A stretch of 64,000 bases of DNA. It comes from Sphingomonas telluris. Lineage in GTDB: Bacteria > Pseudomonadota > Alphaproteobacteria > Sphingomonadales > Sphingomonadaceae. The DNA lies in contig NZ_JAKZHW010000001.1 in the NCBI RefSeq assembly GCF_022568775.1, positions 1,922,001 through 1,986,000 on the forward strand, read 5' to 3'. A model generated the notes under the pieces. The model saw only the letters and a list, made by a program, of their open reading frames with translations, was not told where the DNA came from and made no database searches. A program made the position numbers and the translations under genes. Numbering within the stretch: the first letter of the stretch is position 1; every line of letters begins with the position of its first letter. Of the stretch, positions 13,640-22,090 are shown piece after piece.

Positions 13640-14463
13640 AGCCGAGCGAGGCGCTTCCCGACGACCTGGCCGGCGAGAGCCGCTTCCAGCTCCTCACCCG
13701 GCTAGGCTTCGCTGCCCGGGGCTTGCTCTACATCCTGATCGCCGCGCTGGTGATTCTTGCCGGCCGCACCGAGGATCTCACGGGCGCGCTGGAATATGTG
13801 GGGCATGGCATCGGCAAGCTGCTTATCACCGTGCTCGGCGCAGGGATGGCGGTCTACGGCCTCTGGCACCTCACCGACGCCCTGTTCGGCATCGAAAGCG
13901 GCCGTCATCACTGGAAGGCATGGCGCAAGCGGATCATCTCCGCGGGCAGCGGCGCGATCTATCTCTACCTTGCCTACAAGACCGTGTGGATCGTCTTCGC
14001 CGGTCGCTTTGGCGGCAACGAAACGCAGTCCCGCACGGCCGATGCCCTGCAACTGCAAGGCGGCGAATTGTTCGTCCTGATCGCCGCGGCGATCCTGTTC
14101 GGCACTGCGATCGGCCAGTTCTTCAAGGTCGCGCGCTGCAACTTCCTCGACCCACTCGACTGCACCGAACATCAGAAGCGCTGGATCAAGTGGCTCGGCC
14201 GTGCGGGCTATTCCGCGCGCGGCGTCATCTTTCTGGTGGTTGCGTGGCTGCTGGCGCAATCGGCCCTTCACCATAACGCCGCCGAGGCCGGCGGCCTGGA
14301 GCAGGCGCTCGATTTCTTTTCCCGCGATACGCGCGGCTGGGTCGCAGCCGGCCTCGCGCTGTTCGGCGTCCTGAGCCTCGTCGAGGCTCGCTATCGCCGC
14401 ATCCACCGTCCGCCTCCGGTCGAAGAGGTCGCCGACATGGTTGCGGAAAAGCTCGAGCGCTAG
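13636..14463 (+). CDS. DUF1206 domain membrane protein
   Basis: A 275-residue protein made of three repeats of a two-helix unit with the family pattern R-x-G-x-x-A-R-G near each first helix (RLGFAARGLLYI, and RAGYSARGVIFLVVAW in the third). DUF1206 proteins are uncharacterised inner-membrane proteins. The GTG start overlaps the transporter stop (GTGA), so the two are likely co-translated. Its stop shares CTAG with the converging hydrolase gene. Confidence 0.88.
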   Translation: MKPSEALPDDLAGESRFQLLTRLGFAARGLLYILIAALVILAGRTEDLTGALEYVGHGIGKLLITVLGAGMAVYGLWHLTDALFGIESGRHHWKAWRKRIISAGSGAIYLYLAYKTVWIVFAGRFGGNETQSRTADALQLQGGELFVLIAAAILFGTAIGQFFKVARCNFLDPLDCTEHQKRWIKWLGRAGYSARGVIFLVVAWLLAQSALHHNAAEAGGLEQALDFFSRDTRGWVAAGLALFGVLSLVEARYRRIHRPPPVEEVADMVAEKLER

Positions 14464-16370
14464 GGAACCACTGGCAGCATCACCGAGCTTGCCGTCGAAC
14501 CCCCGTAGAAGACGCTCTGCGTCGCTTTCCGATAGTCGTCCGCCTTGGCATAAAAGATGTTCGGCACGAAGGTCTGCGGATTGCGGTCGTAAAGCGGGAA
14601 GAGGCTCGACTGGACCTGCACCATGATGCGGTGCCCCGGCAGGAACACGTGGTCGACGTTCGGAAGATTGAACCGATATTCCTCGACCTTGCCGGGCGTC
14701 AGCGCCTCGGGCGCCGACAGGCTGTGGACGTAGCGTCCACGGAAGATCTCGATCCCGATCGGAAGCTCGAAGCCGGACATGTCCTGCTTGGACCCCTGTG
14801 ACGCCCCTTCCGGCGCTTCATTGGGATAGACGTCGATCAGCTTCACGACCCAGTCGCTGTCGGTGCCGCTGGTCGATGCGAACAGCCGTGCCTCTGGGGG
14901 GCCCATGATGTGCACCGACTTAGTCAGAGGCGCCGTCGTGTAGGACAGAACGTCGGTGCGGTCGGATACAAATCGCTGGTCGCGCACGAGCCACGGCTTC
15001 CACTGCTCGTCGTCGCCCATCTCGATCGGACGCGGGATGAAGGGGACCGGCTTTGCCGGATCAGAGACGTAGTCGTCATGTCCCGCCAAGGCGGGCTGCG
15101 CGAAGCTCGCGCCATTGCTTGCGTCGAGGAACAGGGGCGTCGGCGTGCCCATCGGCCAACGTGGGCTCTCGTTCCAGCGGTTCACGCCGGTCGAGTAGGT
15201 CAGCACCGGCGGGGTGTGGGGATCGGCCCCAGCCTTCAGATAATGATCGAAGAAAGGCTTCACGTAGCGCGTCCGCCATTCGGCGGCGGTGTCGCCGGTG
15301 AAGGTCAGGTCGCCGAGATCGTAGCCGTAATGGTTGGCGCCCGAATGCCGCCACGGACCGATGGCGAGATGCAGCAGGCCCGAACCTTCATACTTCGCCG
15401 CAAGCGCCTTGTATACCGCCGGACCGCCGTAGCTGTCCTCCTGGTCCCACTGCCCGACCTCGATGAGCGTCGGCACCGTCAGTTCACGAGCGGCGAGGAT
15501 CTTGTCGACGGCCTGGAGCGACCAGAAATCCGTGTAGGCGGGGTTCTGGAACAGCTTCTGCACGAACGGGTAGTTCTCGATGCCGAGCTTGCGCGCGTAA
15601 TCGCCCATCGAGCCCGCCTCGAGATAGCGGGTGTAATCGTCGCCCGGACCGACCGCGAAACCATTCCCTTCGGCCTTCTTGGTGCTCATCGCCACGGCAT
15701 AGTCGAGGCTGTTGGTGCGGAAGGCGCCGTTGTGGAACCAGTCGTCGCCGCGCCAGCCGTCGACCATCGGGCTTTCGGGCACCGCCGCCTTCAGCGCCGG
15801 ATGCGGGTTCACTTCCGCCGCGAGCGTGGTGAAGCCGAGGTAGGACGAACCGATGATCCCGACATTGCCGTTGCTTTCGGCGACATGCTTCACCAGCCAG
15901 TCGATCGTGTCGTAGGCGTCGGTGGATTCATCGATCTTGGTATTGTTGAGCGGCCCGACGAATGGCCGGTTCATCACCCACTTTCCCTCCGAATTGTGGA
16001 TGCCGCGGATGTCCTGGTAGACGCGGATGTAGCCGTCGTTGACGAACTCCTTGTCCATGATCGGAAGCACGTCGACGAGCGACTGGCTGGCCGTGCGAGT
16101 GACGCTGCCCTTCGCGTCATAAGGCGTGCGCGACAGGAGGATCGGCGCGTTCGCCGTCCCCTTCTTCATCATGATCACGGTGTAGAGCTTGGTGCCGTCG
16201 CGCATGGGGATCATGATGACCCGCTTCACGAAATCCGCTTCCGGCCGGACCTGCTCGTAGTTCGCGACCACGTCCGGAGTCATCGGCGTCACGGGCTGCG
16301 GCGGCGCAGCGGCGACGAGGGTGGACAGCGCCAGAAGCGACGCGGCGGAGCGGAAGGCTGTGCGGATCAT
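14460..16370 (-). CDS. CocE/NonD family hydrolase (X-Pro dipeptidyl-peptidase-like)
   Basis: An exported 636-residue alpha/beta hydrolase (signal peptide about 1-22) of the group that includes cocaine esterase and glutaryl-7-ACA acylase. The N-terminal catalytic domain has the nucleophile motif G174-S-S-Y-L-G179 (Ser176), a RDGTKLYTVIMMKKG opening strand and a YQDIRGIHNSEG segment. The C-terminal part is the jelly-roll (PepX_C) domain, with PGHRIMVQVQSSLFPLYDRNPQ near the end. The start ATG 16370 begins the signal peptide. It diverges from the radical SAM gene across 91 bases. The substrate cannot be told from the sequence. Confidence 0.9.
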   Translation of the reverse strand: MIRTAFRSAASLLALSTLVAAAPPQPVTPMTPDVVANYEQVRPEADFVKRVIMIPMRDGTKLYTVIMMKKGTANAPILLSRTPYDAKGSVTRTASQSLVDVLPIMDKEFVNDGYIRVYQDIRGIHNSEGKWVMNRPFVGPLNNTKIDESTDAYDTIDWLVKHVAESNGNVGIIGSSYLGFTTLAAEVNPHPALKAAVPESPMVDGWRGDDWFHNGAFRTNSLDYAVAMSTKKAEGNGFAVGPGDDYTRYLEAGSMGDYARKLGIENYPFVQKLFQNPAYTDFWSLQAVDKILAARELTVPTLIEVGQWDQEDSYGGPAVYKALAAKYEGSGLLHLAIGPWRHSGANHYGYDLGDLTFTGDTAAEWRTRYVKPFFDHYLKAGADPHTPPVLTYSTGVNRWNESPRWPMGTPTPLFLDASNGASFAQPALAGHDDYVSDPAKPVPFIPRPIEMGDDEQWKPWLVRDQRFVSDRTDVLSYTTAPLTKSVHIMGPPEARLFASTSGTDSDWVVKLIDVYPNEAPEGASQGSKQDMSGFELPIGIEIFRGRYVHSLSAPEALTPGKVEEYRFNLPNVDHVFLPGHRIMVQVQSSLFPLYDRNPQTFVPNIFYAKADDYRKATQSVFYGGSTASSVMLPVVP

Positions 16371-16461
16371 CACCGGACCGTAGGGGCGCTCCGGCTGAGC
16401 AGCAAGCGTACCGCTAAACGTCTGTATGGACACGAGAAGTTCTGGAACATATTAAGAACAC

Positions 16462-17706
16462 ATGGCCCAGCTGGACCTTCAGTCGAAGCTCGCGATTCTC
16501 GCCGACGCGGCGAAGTATGACGCGTCCTGCGCATCCTCGGGCACATCGAAGCGCGACAGCCGCGGCGGCAAGGGGCTCGGCTCCACGGAGGGCATGGGCA
16601 TCTGCCATGCCTACGCCCCCGACGGCCGCTGTATCTCGCTCCTGAAGATCCTACTGACCAACAGCTGCATCTTCGACTGCGCCTACTGCATCAACCGCAA
16701 GAGCTCGAACGTGCGCCGCGCGCGCTTCACGGCTGAGGAGGTCGTCCGCCTCACCCTCGAATTCTACAAGCGCAACTACATTGAGGGCCTGTTCCTCTCG
16801 TCCGGGATCATCCGCTCGTCGAATTACACGATGGAGCAAATCGTCGAGGTCGCACGCAGCCTGCGCGAGGACCACGACTTTCGCGGATACATTCACCTGA
16901 AGACGATCCCCGACGCCGATCCCGAGCTGGTACGACAGGCCGGTCTCTACGCGGACCGAGTATCGATCAACGTGGAGCTGCCGACGGAGGATGGGCTGCG
17001 GCGCCTCGCACCGGAAAAGGACGGCGGGCAGATCGAGAGCGCTATGAGCGACACGCGGGCCGCGATCGATGAGGGCGAGGAAGCGAAGAAGAAATACAAG
17101 TCGGCGCCCGGTTACGCGCCAGCCGGCCAGTCGACGCAGATGATCGTCGGAGCGGACGCGGCAAGCGATGGCGACATCATCACGCGCGCGAGCGGACTGT
17201 ACGACCGCTTCCGGCTTCGCCGCGTCTATTACTCGGCGTTCTCCCCCATCCCGGATGCGAGCGCCGTTCTTCCGCTCAAGCGGCCGCCGCTGCTGCGTGA
17301 GCACCGGCTGTACCAGTCCGACTGGCTGATGCGCTTCTACGGCTTCAAGCCGGCCGAGGTCGTCAACGCGGCGGGCGATGACGGCATGCTCCCGCTCGAC
17401 ATCGACCCGAAGCTTGCATGGGCCCTCAAGTTTCGGGAATCGTTTCCGGTCGACGTGAACCGCGCGCCGAAGGAGCAGCTGCTGCGCGTCCCGGGACTGG
17501 GCACGAAGGCCGTCGACCGCATCCTGGCATCTCGGCGCTGGCGCAAGCTTCGGCTGGACGATGTCGCGCGCCTCACAGTGTCGATCTCGAAGGTGCGGCC
17601 GTTCATCGCCACGATCGACTGGCGTCCGACTTTGCTTACGGACCGCGCGGATCTTCGCACCCTCCTTGCCCCTAGAGAGCAGCAGCTGGAGTTGTTCGCG
17701 GCATAG
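16462..17706 (+). CDS. Putative DNA modification/repair radical SAM protein
   Basis: A 414-residue protein of the radical SAM group annotated as putative DNA modification/repair. The iron-sulfur motif is C69-x3-C73-x2-C76 (CIFDCAYC), followed by a TIM-barrel core with LSSGIIRSSNYTMEQ and RVSINVELPTEDGL. Further N-terminal cysteines (C23, C48, C57) precede it. Near residues 330-360 is a helix-hairpin-helix DNA-binding motif (LRVPGLGTKAVDRIL). The next gene, two bases later, encodes a DUF4130-UdgX fusion; this pairing recurs in bacteria (family knowledge). The reaction is not known. The Shine-Dalgarno is weak (AAGAA). Confidence 0.9.
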   Translation: MAQLDLQSKLAILADAAKYDASCASSGTSKRDSRGGKGLGSTEGMGICHAYAPDGRCISLLKILLTNSCIFDCAYCINRKSSNVRRARFTAEEVVRLTLEFYKRNYIEGLFLSSGIIRSSNYTMEQIVEVARSLREDHDFRGYIHLKTIPDADPELVRQAGLYADRVSINVELPTEDGLRRLAPEKDGGQIESAMSDTRAAIDEGEEAKKKYKSAPGYAPAGQSTQMIVGADAASDGDIITRASGLYDRFRLRRVYYSAFSPIPDASAVLPLKRPPLLREHRLYQSDWLMRFYGFKPAEVVNAAGDDGMLPLDIDPKLAWALKFRESFPVDVNRAPKEQLLRVPGLGTKAVDRILASRRWRKLRLDDVARLTVSISKVRPFIATIDWRPTLLTDRADLRTLLAPREQQLELFAA

Positions 17707-17708
17707 TC

Positions 17709-19154
17709 ATGCTCCGCGAAGGCCCGATGATCGACGCGCACCGCGTCACGCTTGCCGCCCAGGACGATTTCGAGGGCTGGCGCGATGCCGCGCGCGATCT
17801 TGCCGAAGCCGGGGTGCCGCCATCCGCCATCATCTGGCGCGTCGACGGTGGTCCCGACGACCTGTTCGCGACCGACGCCACGCAACCGAAGGGCGCGAGC
17901 TTTGCCGTCCCGCGCGCCTTCATCGATCTTGCGAAAAGCGTTGTCTGCCACTCGGATCCGGAACGGTTCGCGCTGCTCTACGCCATGCTGTGGAAGCTGC
18001 GGACCAACCGCAATGCATTCGAGGACCGGGCGGACCCGCTTGTCGACCGTTTGGAACGACTGGCTAAGGAAGTCCGCCGTGACGTGCACAAGATGCACGC
18101 CTTCGTCCGCTTCCGCGAGATCAACGACCGCTTCGTCGCCTTCTTCGAACCGGACCATCACATCGTCCGGCACACTGCGGGCTTTTTCGTCCGCCGCTTC
18201 ACCAACATGCGCTGGTCGATCCTGACGCCGGAGCTCTCAATCTACTGGGACGGCGAGGCACTGACCGAGGGCCCCGGCGCAGCGCGGGCGGAGGCGCCTG
18301 GCGGCGATCCGCTCGAAGCCATGTGGAAGACCTACTACGCGTCCATCTTCAATCCGGCGCGGCTGAAGGTCGGGGCGATGCTCAAGGAGATGCCGAAGAA
18401 GTACTGGCGCAACATGCCGGAGACTTCGCTCGTTCAGCCCCTGATTGCGAACGCCCGCACGCGGGAGTTGGAGATGATCGACCGAGCCGCCGCCAAGACG
18501 GGTTTGAAGCATGCGCTGGAGGCCGAGCGAAGCATCGAGCCGGGTGGAAACCTGCGCGCGTCGTGGGAGGCGCTGTTCAAGGAAGCGCGCGGCTGCACGC
18601 GATGCGACCTCTACAAGCACGCGACGCAAACGGTGTTCGGTGAAGGCCCACTCGACGCGTCGATCATGTTCGTCGGCGAGCAGCCGGGCGACCAAGAGGA
18701 CCTCGCTGGCCGTCCGTTCGTCGGGCCCGCGGGGCAAGTGTTCGATGAAGCGCTGGAGAAGGCCGGCATCCCGCGCTCACAGGTCTACGTCACGAATGCC
18801 GTGAAGCACTTCAAGTTCGAGCAGAAGGGCAAGAAGCGCGTCCACAGCAAGCCGAACGCGGGCGAGATCGAGGCCTGCCGCTGGTGGATCGACCAGGAAC
18901 GGTCGCTCATCCGCCCGCCCGTGACGGTAGCGCTAGGCGCGACTGCGGCGCGTTCCGTGCTCGACAAGGTCGTGACCATCAGCAAGGTGCGCGGATCGCC
19001 GATCCCGCTGGCCGAAGGCGGCGAATGCTGGGTGACCGTCCACCCAAGCTTTCTTCTGCGCATTCCCGAACCCGAGCGCCGCGTGGAAGAACGCCAGAAG
19101 TTCGTCGACGACCTCAAACGCATCCGCGACCGCGCGGAGAAACTGACGGCCTAG
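17709..19154 (+). CDS. udgX: DUF4130-UdgX fusion uracil-DNA binding protein
   Basis: A 481-residue two-domain protein. Residues about 10-260 are the radical-SAM-associated DUF4130 domain. About 275-480 is a family 4-like uracil-DNA glycosylase domain of the UdgX type. Features of UdgX are the GEQPGDQED motif (about 322-330), the K-K-R-V-H loop with H379 at the position of the His that bonds covalently to the abasic sugar in mycobacterial UdgX, and HPS at 445. Cluster cysteines are C296, C299, C390 and probably C440. A second possible start, ATG 17727, has GAAGG upstream. It overlaps the converging dioxygenase stop at CTAG. Confidence 0.92.
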   Translation: MLREGPMIDAHRVTLAAQDDFEGWRDAARDLAEAGVPPSAIIWRVDGGPDDLFATDATQPKGASFAVPRAFIDLAKSVVCHSDPERFALLYAMLWKLRTNRNAFEDRADPLVDRLERLAKEVRRDVHKMHAFVRFREINDRFVAFFEPDHHIVRHTAGFFVRRFTNMRWSILTPELSIYWDGEALTEGPGAARAEAPGGDPLEAMWKTYYASIFNPARLKVGAMLKEMPKKYWRNMPETSLVQPLIANARTRELEMIDRAAAKTGLKHALEAERSIEPGGNLRASWEALFKEARGCTRCDLYKHATQTVFGEGPLDASIMFVGEQPGDQEDLAGRPFVGPAGQVFDEALEKAGIPRSQVYVTNAVKHFKFEQKGKKRVHSKPNAGEIEACRWWIDQERSLIRPPVTVALGATAARSVLDKVVTISKVRGSPIPLAEGGECWVTVHPSFLLRIPEPERRVEERQKFVDDLKRIRDRAEKLTA

Positions 19155-19840
19155 CAGTCCGCCCAGCGGCGGAGCAGGTTGTGATAGGTGCCCGTCAGCG
19201 AGACGATCGCGGGGTCCTTGTCGCCGAGGTTTGTAGCGAGGGTGCGGATGGCGGCGTCCATTTCAAGGAGCAGCGTGCGCTGGCCGTCGTCGCGGACCAT
19301 CGATTGAATCCAGAAGAAGGATGCCACTCGCGATCCGCGCGTCACGGGCTCAACCCGGTGCAACGAGGCCGACGGGTAGAGGACGAGGTCACCCGCGGAG
19401 AGCTTCACAGCATGCTCGCCGTACGTGTCCTCGATCACGAGCTCCCCTCCATCGTAGCTGTCCGGATCGGAGAGGAAGAGCGTCGCCGACAGATCCGTTC
19501 GAATGCGGTCCGAGCGATCTGGCAAGTAGCGGATCGCGTTGTCGACATGATTGTCGAAACCATGCCCGGAGTCCGCATCGTAGCGGTTGAAGAAGGGCGG
19601 GAAGACACGCTTCGGGAGCGCCGCCGACATGAACAGACCGTTGTTCGCCAGCGCGGCGAGGATGATCTCGCCGGCCGCCTGGGCGTCCGGACATTCGGCC
19701 TTCAACTGCAGGTTGCGCTTGGCAAGTTCCGACTGCTTGCCGGCGGTTGCTCGCCCGTCCTCCCACGCGCCGCTGAGCACGAGCCGCCGGACTTCGGCGA
19801 GCTCATTGCCTGAAAGCGCAGCGGGGACCGCGACGAGCAT
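19151..19840 (-). CDS. PKHD-type Fe(II)/2-oxoglutarate hydroxylase (PiuC/YbiX)
   Basis: A 229-residue non-haem iron dioxygenase. The metal ligands are H98-x-D100 (NHVDN) and H161 (SLHRVEP); the 2-oxoglutarate-binding Arg is R171. The family (PiuC, YbiX) is usually found beside iron-regulated TonB receptors, as here: the receptor gene lies nine bases upstream on the same strand. The substrate in any organism is not settled; a role in siderophore use is inferred from context. Confidence 0.9.
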   Translation of the reverse strand: MLVAVPAALSGNELAEVRRLVLSGAWEDGRATAGKQSELAKRNLQLKAECPDAQAAGEIILAALANNGLFMSAALPKRVFPPFFNRYDADSGHGFDNHVDNAIRYLPDRSDRIRTDLSATLFLSDPDSYDGGELVIEDTYGEHAVKLSAGDLVLYPSASLHRVEPVTRGSRVASFFWIQSMVRDDGQRTLLLEMDAAIRTLATNLGDKDPAIVSLTGTYHNLLRRWADC

Positions 19841-19849
19841 CGCCCGTCC

Positions 19850-22090
19850 TTACAGGCCGAACGCCAGGGTGGCGACTGCGCTGCGACCCGCACCCGGCAC
19901 GAAGTGGCCGCCGCCGAGAGAGTCGGCGTAGCGCTTGTCGAAAAGGTTAAAGGCGTTGAGGCGGAGCGTGACCTTCTTGCTGATGTCGTAGCCGAAGGTG
20001 GCGTCAGCGACCCAATAATCGTCGACCTTTCGCGTGTTCGTCGTGTTCGTGTAGCGTGCCCCGACGTAGCGAACGCCGCCGCCGATCTCGATGCCCTGCG
20101 GGAAGGTGTAGAGGGTCCAGAGCGAGCCGCTGTTCTTCGGCACGTTACCGAGGCGATTGCCGATATCGGTGATCGTGTTGGAATCGATCACCTCGCTGTC
20201 GAGATAGGTGTAGCTCGCGACCAGCTGCCAGCGTTCGGTGATGCGCCCCGTCGCGCCGAACTCGAAACCGTCCACGCGCTGCTCGCCCTCGAGGACCATG
20301 GCAGGCTCGCCGGGAAGGCCGGGCGTGCGGGCGTTGGTCTTCTCCGTGCGGAACAGAGCGGTCGTCACAAGTAGCTTGCCGCCGAAGCCGTCCCACTTCG
20401 AACCGACCTCGAAGGTGCGGCTGTGCTCGGGCTTCAGCGCGCCCTGAGCCTCTGTCGGAGTCGTCTGCGTCAGGTTCTCGATCGACGGGTTCACCGACGT
20501 TCCGGCGCCGGCGTAGAGGCTAAGCGTCCGGATCGGCTTGTATGTGATGCCCGCGCGCCAGGTCAGGTACGAATCGCTGCGGTCGATCGGGCCGACCGTT
20601 GCCGAGAGTTGCGACGGCGCAGGATCGAACTCGCTCTTGTTGTGCTCCCAGCGCAATCCGCCCGTGATGAGGATCTGGTCGGTGAGATAGGCGGTATCGA
20701 AGACGTATGCCGCGACCGTGTCCGCCTTTGCGTGGACGACCTCGCCCGGAAGATGGACAACCGTCCCATCCCAGGGGCGCTCTGGATCCGGATCGAAGAT
20801 GTTCGTTGGGGTACCATCGGTAATCAGGCGAAGCTGGTTGCGGCTCTTCTCGCTCGAAATCTCGAAACCCGCGATCGCGTCATGGCGGACGCTGCCGGTC
20901 TGGAACTTCGCGAAAAGGTTCGACTGATTGAGCAGAACCTTATCGACCGTGTCGCGCGACTGCGTTTGCGGGTTCACTAGCAGCCCGGTGTTAGTCGTCG
21001 GTGGGTCGCTAGGAATGACTGCAAATCGCGGCGAGGAATAGATCGAGTCTCGCGTCGCGTAGCCGTATCGGGTCGTGTTCGCGATGCGGATGTCCGACGT
21101 GATGTCGTGCTCCAGCGCGAACGTCGCGATGTTGGTGACCGTGTCCTCGTAATCTCGCTCCGTCAGCCCGTAGTAATTGTCGTAATCCACCGGCGCGGGC
21201 TTGTTGTGATATTCCGGAAGCGCCGTGTTAGTGTCGGGAACGAACGGGATTCCGTAATCCGGCTGATTGTCCCCCTCTAGGCGGAAATAGGACAGGATGG
21301 CTCGCGTCGACGTGCCGAGGCCGGCGGCAATGGACGGCGCGATGCCCCAGCGCTTGGTTTCGACATGGTCGCGCCCGGGCGTGTCGGCCTCATGATAGAG
21401 CAGATTGACCCGAAGCGCCGTGCCGCCGCCCAGGCCGAGCCGATCCCCGCCCACGTTCACGTCGGCAGTTCCCCGCACGTAGCCGGGCAAGCCCACGCCG
21501 ACCGTGCCGCTTACGAAGGTCCCCAGCTTCGGCTGCTTCGAGAACATGTTGATGTAGCCGCCGGTCGACCCGCGTCCGGTCTGGGCCGACGCGGGACCCT
21601 TCACTACCTCGACCTGTTCCACGTTGAACGTGTCGCGCGTGTAGCTGGCAAAGTCGCGAATGCCGTCGACGAAGATGTCGTTGCGTGCACCGAAGCCGCG
21701 TAGCGTCAGATTGTCGCCCGCCGGTCCGCCGCCGCCCTCGCCGGCAGCCATGCTGATGCCGGAGACGTTGCGAAGCACGTCGTTGAGCGTCGTTGCCGCC
21801 TGCTGTTCGATGATCTCGCGGGGGACGATGCTGATCGATTGCGGCGCATCGCGCACGTCGGGCAGGCGGCTGTTCAGCGTGTTGATGCGATACTTCGCCC
21901 CGGTGACGATGATGGGGTCGGCGCCCTCGCTGTTTTCGGCAGCGTCCGAGGTCGTCGCCGCAGTGGCCGTTCCGGATGCCGCGACGTCGTTCGCGTAGGC
22001 TTCCGTGCTGAACAGCAGCGTGGAGCCCACCAGCACCGATGCCGCCTTCCTGTACGAACGGATACCGGCGCTACTGCTGAATCGCGACAC
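19850..22090 (-). CDS. TonB-dependent siderophore receptor (Fiu-like)
   Basis: A 746-residue outer-membrane receptor. After the signal peptide (about 1-34) comes a TonB-box-like DPIIVTGAKY, then the plug domain (about 75-190) with DAPQSISIVPREII, RGFGARNDIFVDGIRD and VEVVKGPASAQTGRGSTGG, all typical of the siderophore receptor subfamily, and a 22-strand barrel ending in a C-terminal aromatic-type strand (VATLAFGL). The start is GTG at 22090 with AAAGGGG upstream. A Fur-like palindrome lies 46-66 bases before the start. With the PKHD hydroxylase it resembles the fiu-ybiX iron unit, so catecholate siderophores are the likely ligands. Confidence 0.9.
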   Translation of the reverse strand: MSRFSSSAGIRSYRKAASVLVGSTLLFSTEAYANDVAASGTATAATTSDAAENSEGADPIIVTGAKYRINTLNSRLPDVRDAPQSISIVPREIIEQQAATTLNDVLRNVSGISMAAGEGGGGPAGDNLTLRGFGARNDIFVDGIRDFASYTRDTFNVEQVEVVKGPASAQTGRGSTGGYINMFSKQPKLGTFVSGTVGVGLPGYVRGTADVNVGGDRLGLGGGTALRVNLLYHEADTPGRDHVETKRWGIAPSIAAGLGTSTRAILSYFRLEGDNQPDYGIPFVPDTNTALPEYHNKPAPVDYDNYYGLTERDYEDTVTNIATFALEHDITSDIRIANTTRYGYATRDSIYSSPRFAVIPSDPPTTNTGLLVNPQTQSRDTVDKVLLNQSNLFAKFQTGSVRHDAIAGFEISSEKSRNQLRLITDGTPTNIFDPDPERPWDGTVVHLPGEVVHAKADTVAAYVFDTAYLTDQILITGGLRWEHNKSEFDPAPSQLSATVGPIDRSDSYLTWRAGITYKPIRTLSLYAGAGTSVNPSIENLTQTTPTEAQGALKPEHSRTFEVGSKWDGFGGKLLVTTALFRTEKTNARTPGLPGEPAMVLEGEQRVDGFEFGATGRITERWQLVASYTYLDSEVIDSNTITDIGNRLGNVPKNSGSLWTLYTFPQGIEIGGGVRYVGARYTNTTNTRKVDDYWVADATFGYDISKKVTLRLNAFNLFDKRYADSLGGGHFVPGAGRSAVATLAFGL

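Follow-up and report, generated by a model that had tools for sequence, protein, structure and literature searches.

What do a radical S-adenosylmethionine (SAM) enzyme and a protein joining a DUF4130 domain to a UdgX domain do together in a bacterial cell? The question is raised by a two-gene locus of Sphingomonas telluris, which we analyzed within a stretch of 64,000 nucleotides (contig NZ_JAKZHW010000001.1, positions 1,922,001 to 1,986,000; hereafter the window). The original prediction for this locus, made from the letters, was that the pair may modify or mark DNA bases and then trap, excise or protect the product, with the fusion of the two domains as the central feature. Our best reading, to which we give a probability of roughly 0.6, is that the radical SAM protein and DUF4130 make up an SOS-induced, clamp-tethered operon that processes DNA lesions, and that the uracil-capping UdgX domain is optional. 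The operon's apparent SOS control, together with a clamp-like tail on the radical SAM protein, points to damage repair or tolerance over programmed marking. The pair is present in about one quarter of the Pseudomonadota that we sampled (72 of 299 genomes) and in records from other phyla, and in the literature we found neither a lesion nor a chemistry described for it; the LexA box and the clamp-like tail indicate when (after damage) and where (at the replication fork) to look.

The association of these families and its link to the SOS response are not new. NCBIfam already names the set: TIGR03916 for the radical SAM protein, TIGR03915 for DUF4130, and TIGR03914 for UdgX. A two-gene COG1573-COG4277 SOS operon occurs in Bacteroidetes, with reports cited for Verrucomicrobia and Alphaproteobacteria (PMC8565304), the association of DUF4130 with radical SAM proteins termed SplB-like is in print (PMC3765255), LexA control was predicted for CAC3343-CAC3344 of Clostridium acetobutylicum (PMC3828012), and a gene of this name is up in dried Acinetobacter (PMC13130816). 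The earlier remark that the chemistry of the pair is not described fits the literature that we found, but the association itself had been published (PMC3765255, PMC8565304). The locus of the window is the same in kind as the COG4277-COG1573 operon, with a single operon that contains all of these families at scores above cut-off and is preceded by a LexA box. The passages that we read on this gene set mention neither a clamp-like tail nor extra invariant cysteines nor a modular UdgX. Together with the conserved operator these are the new leads, and relative to the original prediction we add the LexA box, the clamp-like tail, three more invariant cysteines, and a C-terminal segment resembling a helix-hairpin-helix (HhH).

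The two open reading frames (ORFs) lie exactly where they had been placed (Table 1), and their identities hold. The first protein scores 569.7 bits against TIGR03916 (curated cut-off 343.5), and the cysteines of its CX3CX2C motif are invariant in the 87 aligned proteins, the window's own included. The second carries DUF4130 at the N-terminus (218.5 bits against TIGR03915, cut-off 112.25; 132.4 against Pfam DUF4130, cut-off 27) and UdgX at the C-terminus (321.7 bits against TIGR03914, cut-off 189.95), so that both domains of the single chain are above curated cut-offs. The Pfam matches of the pair (Radical_SAM, DUF4130, UDG) agree with those of NCBIfam. With the motif definitions of PMC10359453, the catalytic residues of UdgX are kept, namely E324 and Q325 in a motif A of the GEQPG type with its glutamine, and the R-loop histidine H379, equivalent to the residue that binds DNA covalently. 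The relation of the pair to DNA is upheld, and the UdgX domain looks active by its residues. Relative to UdgX of Mycobacterium smegmatis (6ajo, 6iod, 6l6s), the domain here makes up the C-terminal half of a fusion with DUF4130 and stands under a LexA box, and its R-loop reads KKRVH instead of KRRIH.

The original prediction would have been refuted by a lack of co-occurrence beyond close relatives, but such co-occurrence was found. We searched 299 Pseudomonadota genomes, drawn evenly, at the curated cut-offs: TIGR03916 passed in 72 genomes, each of which also had TIGR03915, and TIGR03915 passed in 75 altogether (Fisher p 2.6e-66, kinship ignored). The two genes were also adjacent in single records of Bacteroides, Clostridia (Acetoanaerobium), and Acinetobacter, and in a Psychrobacter-like genome. 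The intergenic spacing is at most 30 bases in 59 of the 72 operons, an approximate figure as gene starts were chosen by a script. Among the named loci of a second set, the best 80 of at least 589 confirmed GTDB stretches, DUF4130 lies downstream in 77, and two of the other three, L140 and L152, are cut short by contig ends.

The fusion is less regular. DUF4130 and UdgX share one frame in 54 of the 72 operons (46 of 50 in Alphaproteobacteria, 8 of 22 elsewhere). UdgX is outside the DUF4130 frame in the other 18: 17, L091 among them, show none in the stretch that was fetched, and in L079 it occupies another frame. The alphaproteobacterial exceptions are L079, two standalone DUF4130 (L068, L071), and one operon cut by a contig end (L091). 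The partner proteins scanned in the Bacteroides, Acetoanaerobium, Acinetobacter, and Psychrobacter-like cases are DUF4130 without a uracil-DNA glycosylase (UDG) domain, and in a faecal "phage" record DUF4130 (76.9 bits with an in-house profile) comes directly after the radical SAM gene. In a quick LG+G4 tree of 152 radical SAM proteins, where L061 and L207 form long end branches and 9 rows are without a fusion label (owing to contig ends, split frames or partners not found), the fusion state changes 13 or 14 times, depending on the parsimony routine, and at least 9 changes are forced by strongly supported branches. Since UdgX is missing from the DUF4130 frame in these 18 operons and DUF4130-only partners exist outside Pseudomonadota, the core machine, as judged from gene content, is the radical SAM protein with DUF4130, and UdgX is an optional accessory; the fusion is not the central feature that it had been taken for. 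The same data bear on the explanation implied by PMC8565304, which presents the operon as a UDG-based repair system. Base excision carried out chiefly by the UDG domain, with the radical SAM protein as a helper, would be consistent with that description and with the active-looking UdgX of the window, but 14 of the 22 non-alphaproteobacterial and 2 complete operons among the 50 alphaproteobacterial ones lack a UdgX match in the fetched stretch, and the DUF4130-only partners and repeated changes of fusion state also argue against it. We regard this explanation as improbable, and the label of a uracil-glycosylase repair system does not suit lineages whose partner protein has no glycosylase domain.

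The evidence for SOS control comes from the region before the first gene. In Alphaproteobacteria the LexA motif is a GTTC-N7-GTTC direct repeat (PMC8565304). Each of the 50 alphaproteobacterial operons has a box of this type in the 120 bp that precede its start (mean of 0.26 in shuffled sequences; 0 of 450 coding windows), and in 33 of them it begins at most 25 bases from the start codon. Outside this class, 12 of the 22 operons have a perfect CTGT-N8-ACAG; of the other ten, inspected by eye, two have boxes overlapping the chosen start, five are one base off, and three have none. The GTDB loci overlap in taxonomy with the alphaproteobacterial set and do not count as independent evidence; 75 of the 80 have a box within 150 bp (none in L192, L199, L202, L203, and L208). 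In the genome of the window the same box precedes lexA, recA, uvrB, and radA, overlies the called start of pdeM, and precedes an RmuC-like gene (185.5 bits, below its cut-off of 810) as well as a radical SAM gene of the PA0069 family. The operon is apparently under LexA control. A strict sigma-70 consensus scan of positions 16250-19400 gave no promoter, and a putative one overlaps the box (Table 1). Since aligned relatives tend to have TTG, 17 bases, and a TATNNN inside the box, with the start codon where transcription would begin, the arrangement suggests a promoter occluded by LexA and a leaderless transcript starting at the ATG.

The second line of evidence is the C-terminus of the radical SAM protein, ...REQQLELFAA. 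Peptides that bind the beta sliding clamp are defined as Q-phi-x-[L/M]-[F/L], or one residue longer, the strongest being QLxLF and QLxLxF (PMC11139829). We scanned the last 20 residues, with A, V, L, I or M as phi, and the definition fits 52 of 72 radical SAM tails (shuffled mean 3.2, maximum 8; 4 of 1376 other windows), while a pattern wider than the published one fits 59. Among the GTDB loci it fits 75 of 80 tails (shuffled mean 3.0; 2 of 1523 other windows), with 53 of 80 strict. As a control, ORFs of these 80 loci were called mechanically (at least 150 amino acids, longest first, DUF4130 proteins included and radical SAM ones excluded): 5 of 525 fit and none strictly. A similar pattern was present in 1 of the 72 partner proteins. 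Fitting tails also occur in Bacteroides (QLLLDF) and Acinetobacter (QLSLGF). In the structural model the tail is disordered, with a predicted local distance difference test score below 50 at QLELF. We infer that the radical SAM protein would dock on the clamp through this peptide, in the manner of Pol IV and similar clients, which have the same Q-L-x-L-F type of peptide in a disordered C-terminal tail. If such docking holds, a radical SAM enzyme would be a new kind of client. Among the papers that our searches listed, drawn from a collection without most subscription titles, we found none that connects TIGR03916 proteins, or radical SAM repair enzymes of any other family, with the sliding clamp.

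These elements can be assembled into a possible course of events. Cleavage of LexA would lead to expression of the operon, and docking of QLELF on the clamp would bring the radical SAM protein to stalled or gapped forks, where its HhH-like segment would grip the DNA. DUF4130 would recognise or present the damaged base; we infer this role of lesion-presenting partner from the strict co-occurrence. The SAM-bound [4Fe-4S] cluster would then generate a 5'-deoxyadenosyl radical, and the lesion would be repaired or converted by hydrogen abstraction, possibly with the assistance of an auxiliary cluster on C23/C48/C57. In operons with a fused UdgX, this domain would excise uracil at the same sites and stay on the abasic site as a cap against breakage until processing.

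The three further invariant cysteines form a possible auxiliary Fe-S or metal site. The fold neighbors of the radical SAM protein (lipoyl synthase, HydE, and biotin synthase) have the barrel in common with it, at 10-18% identity; several members of that group have auxiliary clusters, and they act on small-molecule or peptide substrates. The TIGR03916 family profile gave weak matches to the HhH proteins ComEA and RuvA (E 0.02-0.25). For DUF4130, a profile of 24 standalone members had 0 matches at E <= 10 among PDB sequences, and the domain has a weak match to 2d4g (E 0.083). Twelve residues are invariant among these 24 members, and their equivalents in the window are R134, F135, P148, F160, R163, I171, W206, Y209, R218, P229, W233, and E238.

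The chemistry itself could be of another kind. The radical SAM protein and DUF4130 might alter a base such as thymine under SOS, with UdgX trapping the product, which is close to the original prediction and would agree with the SOS control and with the published prediction that DUF4130 is a mutagenesis-related enzyme, where modified thymines are mentioned (PMC3765255). UdgX is, however, described as highly specific for uracil (PMC10359453), many operons do without it, and a modification site or sequence specificity is not known, so that we find such a mutagenic or base-modifying module rather unlikely. A somewhat different proposal is the direct reversal of a pyrimidine lesion caused by UV, as done by spore photoproduct lyase (SPL), and the term SplB-like suits it (PMC3765255), as do the radical SAM chemistry, the SOS control, and the HhH-like segment. 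SPL is not among the 50 fold-search matches listed for the radical SAM protein. Nor is similarity detectable beyond the cysteine loop between TIGR03916 and the PA0069-family protein of the same genome (BLASTP E 1.2; hhalign probability 4%), whose family we take to belong to the COG1533/SplB group; this is not decisive, as SPL itself was not compared directly. We give direct reversal a small chance, and continue to prefer a clamp-tethered lesion-processing enzyme with DUF4130 as its partner.

The PA0069-family gene suggests that the operon may have company. Its LexA box lies 24 bases ahead of the start, and its tail ends in QLRLL. Among PA0069-family proteins (L281-L310; L026:1540-2610), sampled as the best 30 of 84 genomes over cut-off and counted without a shuffle control, the clamp definition fits 29 of 30 tails and an alphaproteobacterial-type LexA box lies within 200 bp in 22 of 30. 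Since two families without detectable similarity beyond the cysteine loop both have clamp motifs and LexA boxes, in addition to being radical SAM proteins, one might envisage a class of SOS-induced, clamp-riding radical SAM DNA-repair enzymes, comprising TIGR03916 (with an auxiliary Fe-S cluster, DUF4130 as lesion-presenting subunit, and UdgX as an abasic-site cap gained or lost) and the PA0069 family. We advance this class tentatively, with slightly less than even confidence. Such a class would couple radical repair to the replication fork, whereas the DNA repair by radical SAM enzymes known so far is chiefly that of germinating spores.

Several observations weigh against the lesion-processing reading or parts of it. 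The pattern GAAC-N7-GAAC is not rare: the window has 1 for 2.08 expected by shuffling, the genome has 88 for 52 of the reversed pattern, and some copies precede genes without a known SOS role (glnA and genes for a GGDEF protein, a glutathione S-transferase-like protein, and an MCE-family protein). Because the pattern by itself is not rare, the case for SOS control rests on the position of the box and its conservation, and the three non-alphaproteobacterial operons where no box was recognisable by eye (L061, L093, and L094, of 22) count on the other side. Twenty of the 72 tails are outside the published clamp definition, mostly as near-variants (QMALW, QMGLW, QLSLI, QLGFGF, QGSLF), and so are those of Acetoanaerobium (QLSIF) and of the faecal record (QLSFF). 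DUF4130 occurs without a radical SAM gene in three sampled genomes (G174, with the match close to the end of a contig, G185, and G233), and at L157 (Sphingomonas koreensis contig RCZF01000002.1) a LexA box is present and DUF4130 was not found in the 5 kb downstream. Residues 21-60 of the radical SAM model have low confidence, the basis for an auxiliary cluster is the cysteines, the HhH-like segment is below the cut-off of Pfam HHH_3 (22.0 for 27 bits), and the fold-search matches of the whole fusion were taken up by UdgX, so that DUF4130 was not seen alone.

Table 1. Features of the radical SAM and DUF4130-UdgX locus, in window positions.
Feature	Position	Strand	Basis or remark
LexA box GAACATATTAAGAAC (GAAC-N7-GAAC)	16445..16459	+	ends 2 bases before start codon
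Putative promoter: TGGACA (16427-16432), 17-base spacer, TATTAA (16450-16455) within LexA box	16427..16455	+	
Radical SAM protein, TIGR03916 rSAM_link_UDG, 414 amino acids	16462..17706	+	ORF, NCBIfam and Pfam profile matches
Three further invariant cysteines C23, C48, C57 (and H49)	16528..16632	+	87/87 aligned
CX3CX2C radical SAM motif, C69, C73, C76	16666..16689	+	alignment of relatives
HhH-like segment, residues 329-358	17446..17535	+	sub-threshold Pfam HHH_3
Beta-clamp-binding-like motif QLELF, residues 408-412	17683..17697	+	published motif definition
DUF4130-UdgX fusion, 481 amino acids (475 if start is 17727)	17709..19154	+	ORF, profile matches
DUF4130 / TIGR03915 domain, residues 17-239	17757..18425	+	profile match
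UdgX / TIGR03914 domain, residues 241-472	18429..19124	+	profile match
UdgX motif A GEQPGD, residues 323-328; E324, Q325 equivalent to E52, Q53	18675..18692	+	
UdgX R-loop KKRVH, residues 375-379; H379 equivalent to cross-linking H109	18831..18845	+	
UdgX motif B HPSFLLR, residues 445-451	19041..19061	+	

The gap of two bases between the genes stands as annotated (TAG tc ATG), but would become 20 bases if translation started at the in-frame ATG at 17727, which is closer to where most aligned homologues begin and may be the true start. The pair stands alone amid seemingly unrelated genes on a contig of 2.15 Mb, with an S15-type peptidase gene upstream and, downstream, genes for a PKHD-type hydroxylase and a TonB receptor (window 19151-22090), all on the opposite strand. 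The latter two are convergent to the operon, and the stop of the hydroxylase gene overlaps that of the fusion. No tandem repeats were found at 14000-22000. The genome (3.03 Mb in 3 contigs) has one TIGR03916 match, and among the best 120 matches of each of our three protein searches, which cover close relatives, the named near relatives of both proteins come from Sphingomonas and Sphingomicrobium.

The isolated position of the pair and the conserved SOS operators also speak against a module for anti-phage defence that would sense or trap modified phage DNA, for which one could invoke the capture of DNA by UdgX and the presence of the radical SAM gene on 158 plasmid records; we consider this role highly improbable. 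Neither protein matched a PADLOC family at E <= 0.001, PHROGs gave weak matches only, and a search of viral contigs returned 2 radical SAM loci. Phaeobacter is the commonest host among the plasmid records (58), and 142 of the 158 are typed as non-mobilizable. In records labelled "Acinetobacter phage MD-2021a" (L219, CAKLQH020000003.1) the pair lies close to glyS/glyQ, and these records resemble bacterial chromosome.

Some variants of the locus were seen along the way. In one genome without a radical SAM gene, a DUF4130 remnant with an in-frame stop (G071:C1:5487547-5487696) adjoins an intact UdgX gene, perhaps a decayed operon that left UdgX alone. At L206:6221-7683, DUF4130 and UdgX are in two overlapping frames, by natural split or frameshift. 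A Gemmatirosa paralogue of TIGR03916 (L217:4001-5263) has an HhH above cut-off (30.9 bits) and no equivalents of C23/C48/C57, and DUF4130 was not found within 4 kb of it. In several sphingomonads a hemerythrin-HHE gene lies between the radical SAM and DUF4130-UdgX genes (L133:6277-6765, L134:4153-4635, L137:6503-6976, L145:6318-6797, and L162:6742-7212; all five passed Pfam Hemerythrin), and similar ORFs in this position were noted by eye in L143, L090, and L092. The inserted protein may guard an oxygen-sensitive cluster or supply iron to it.

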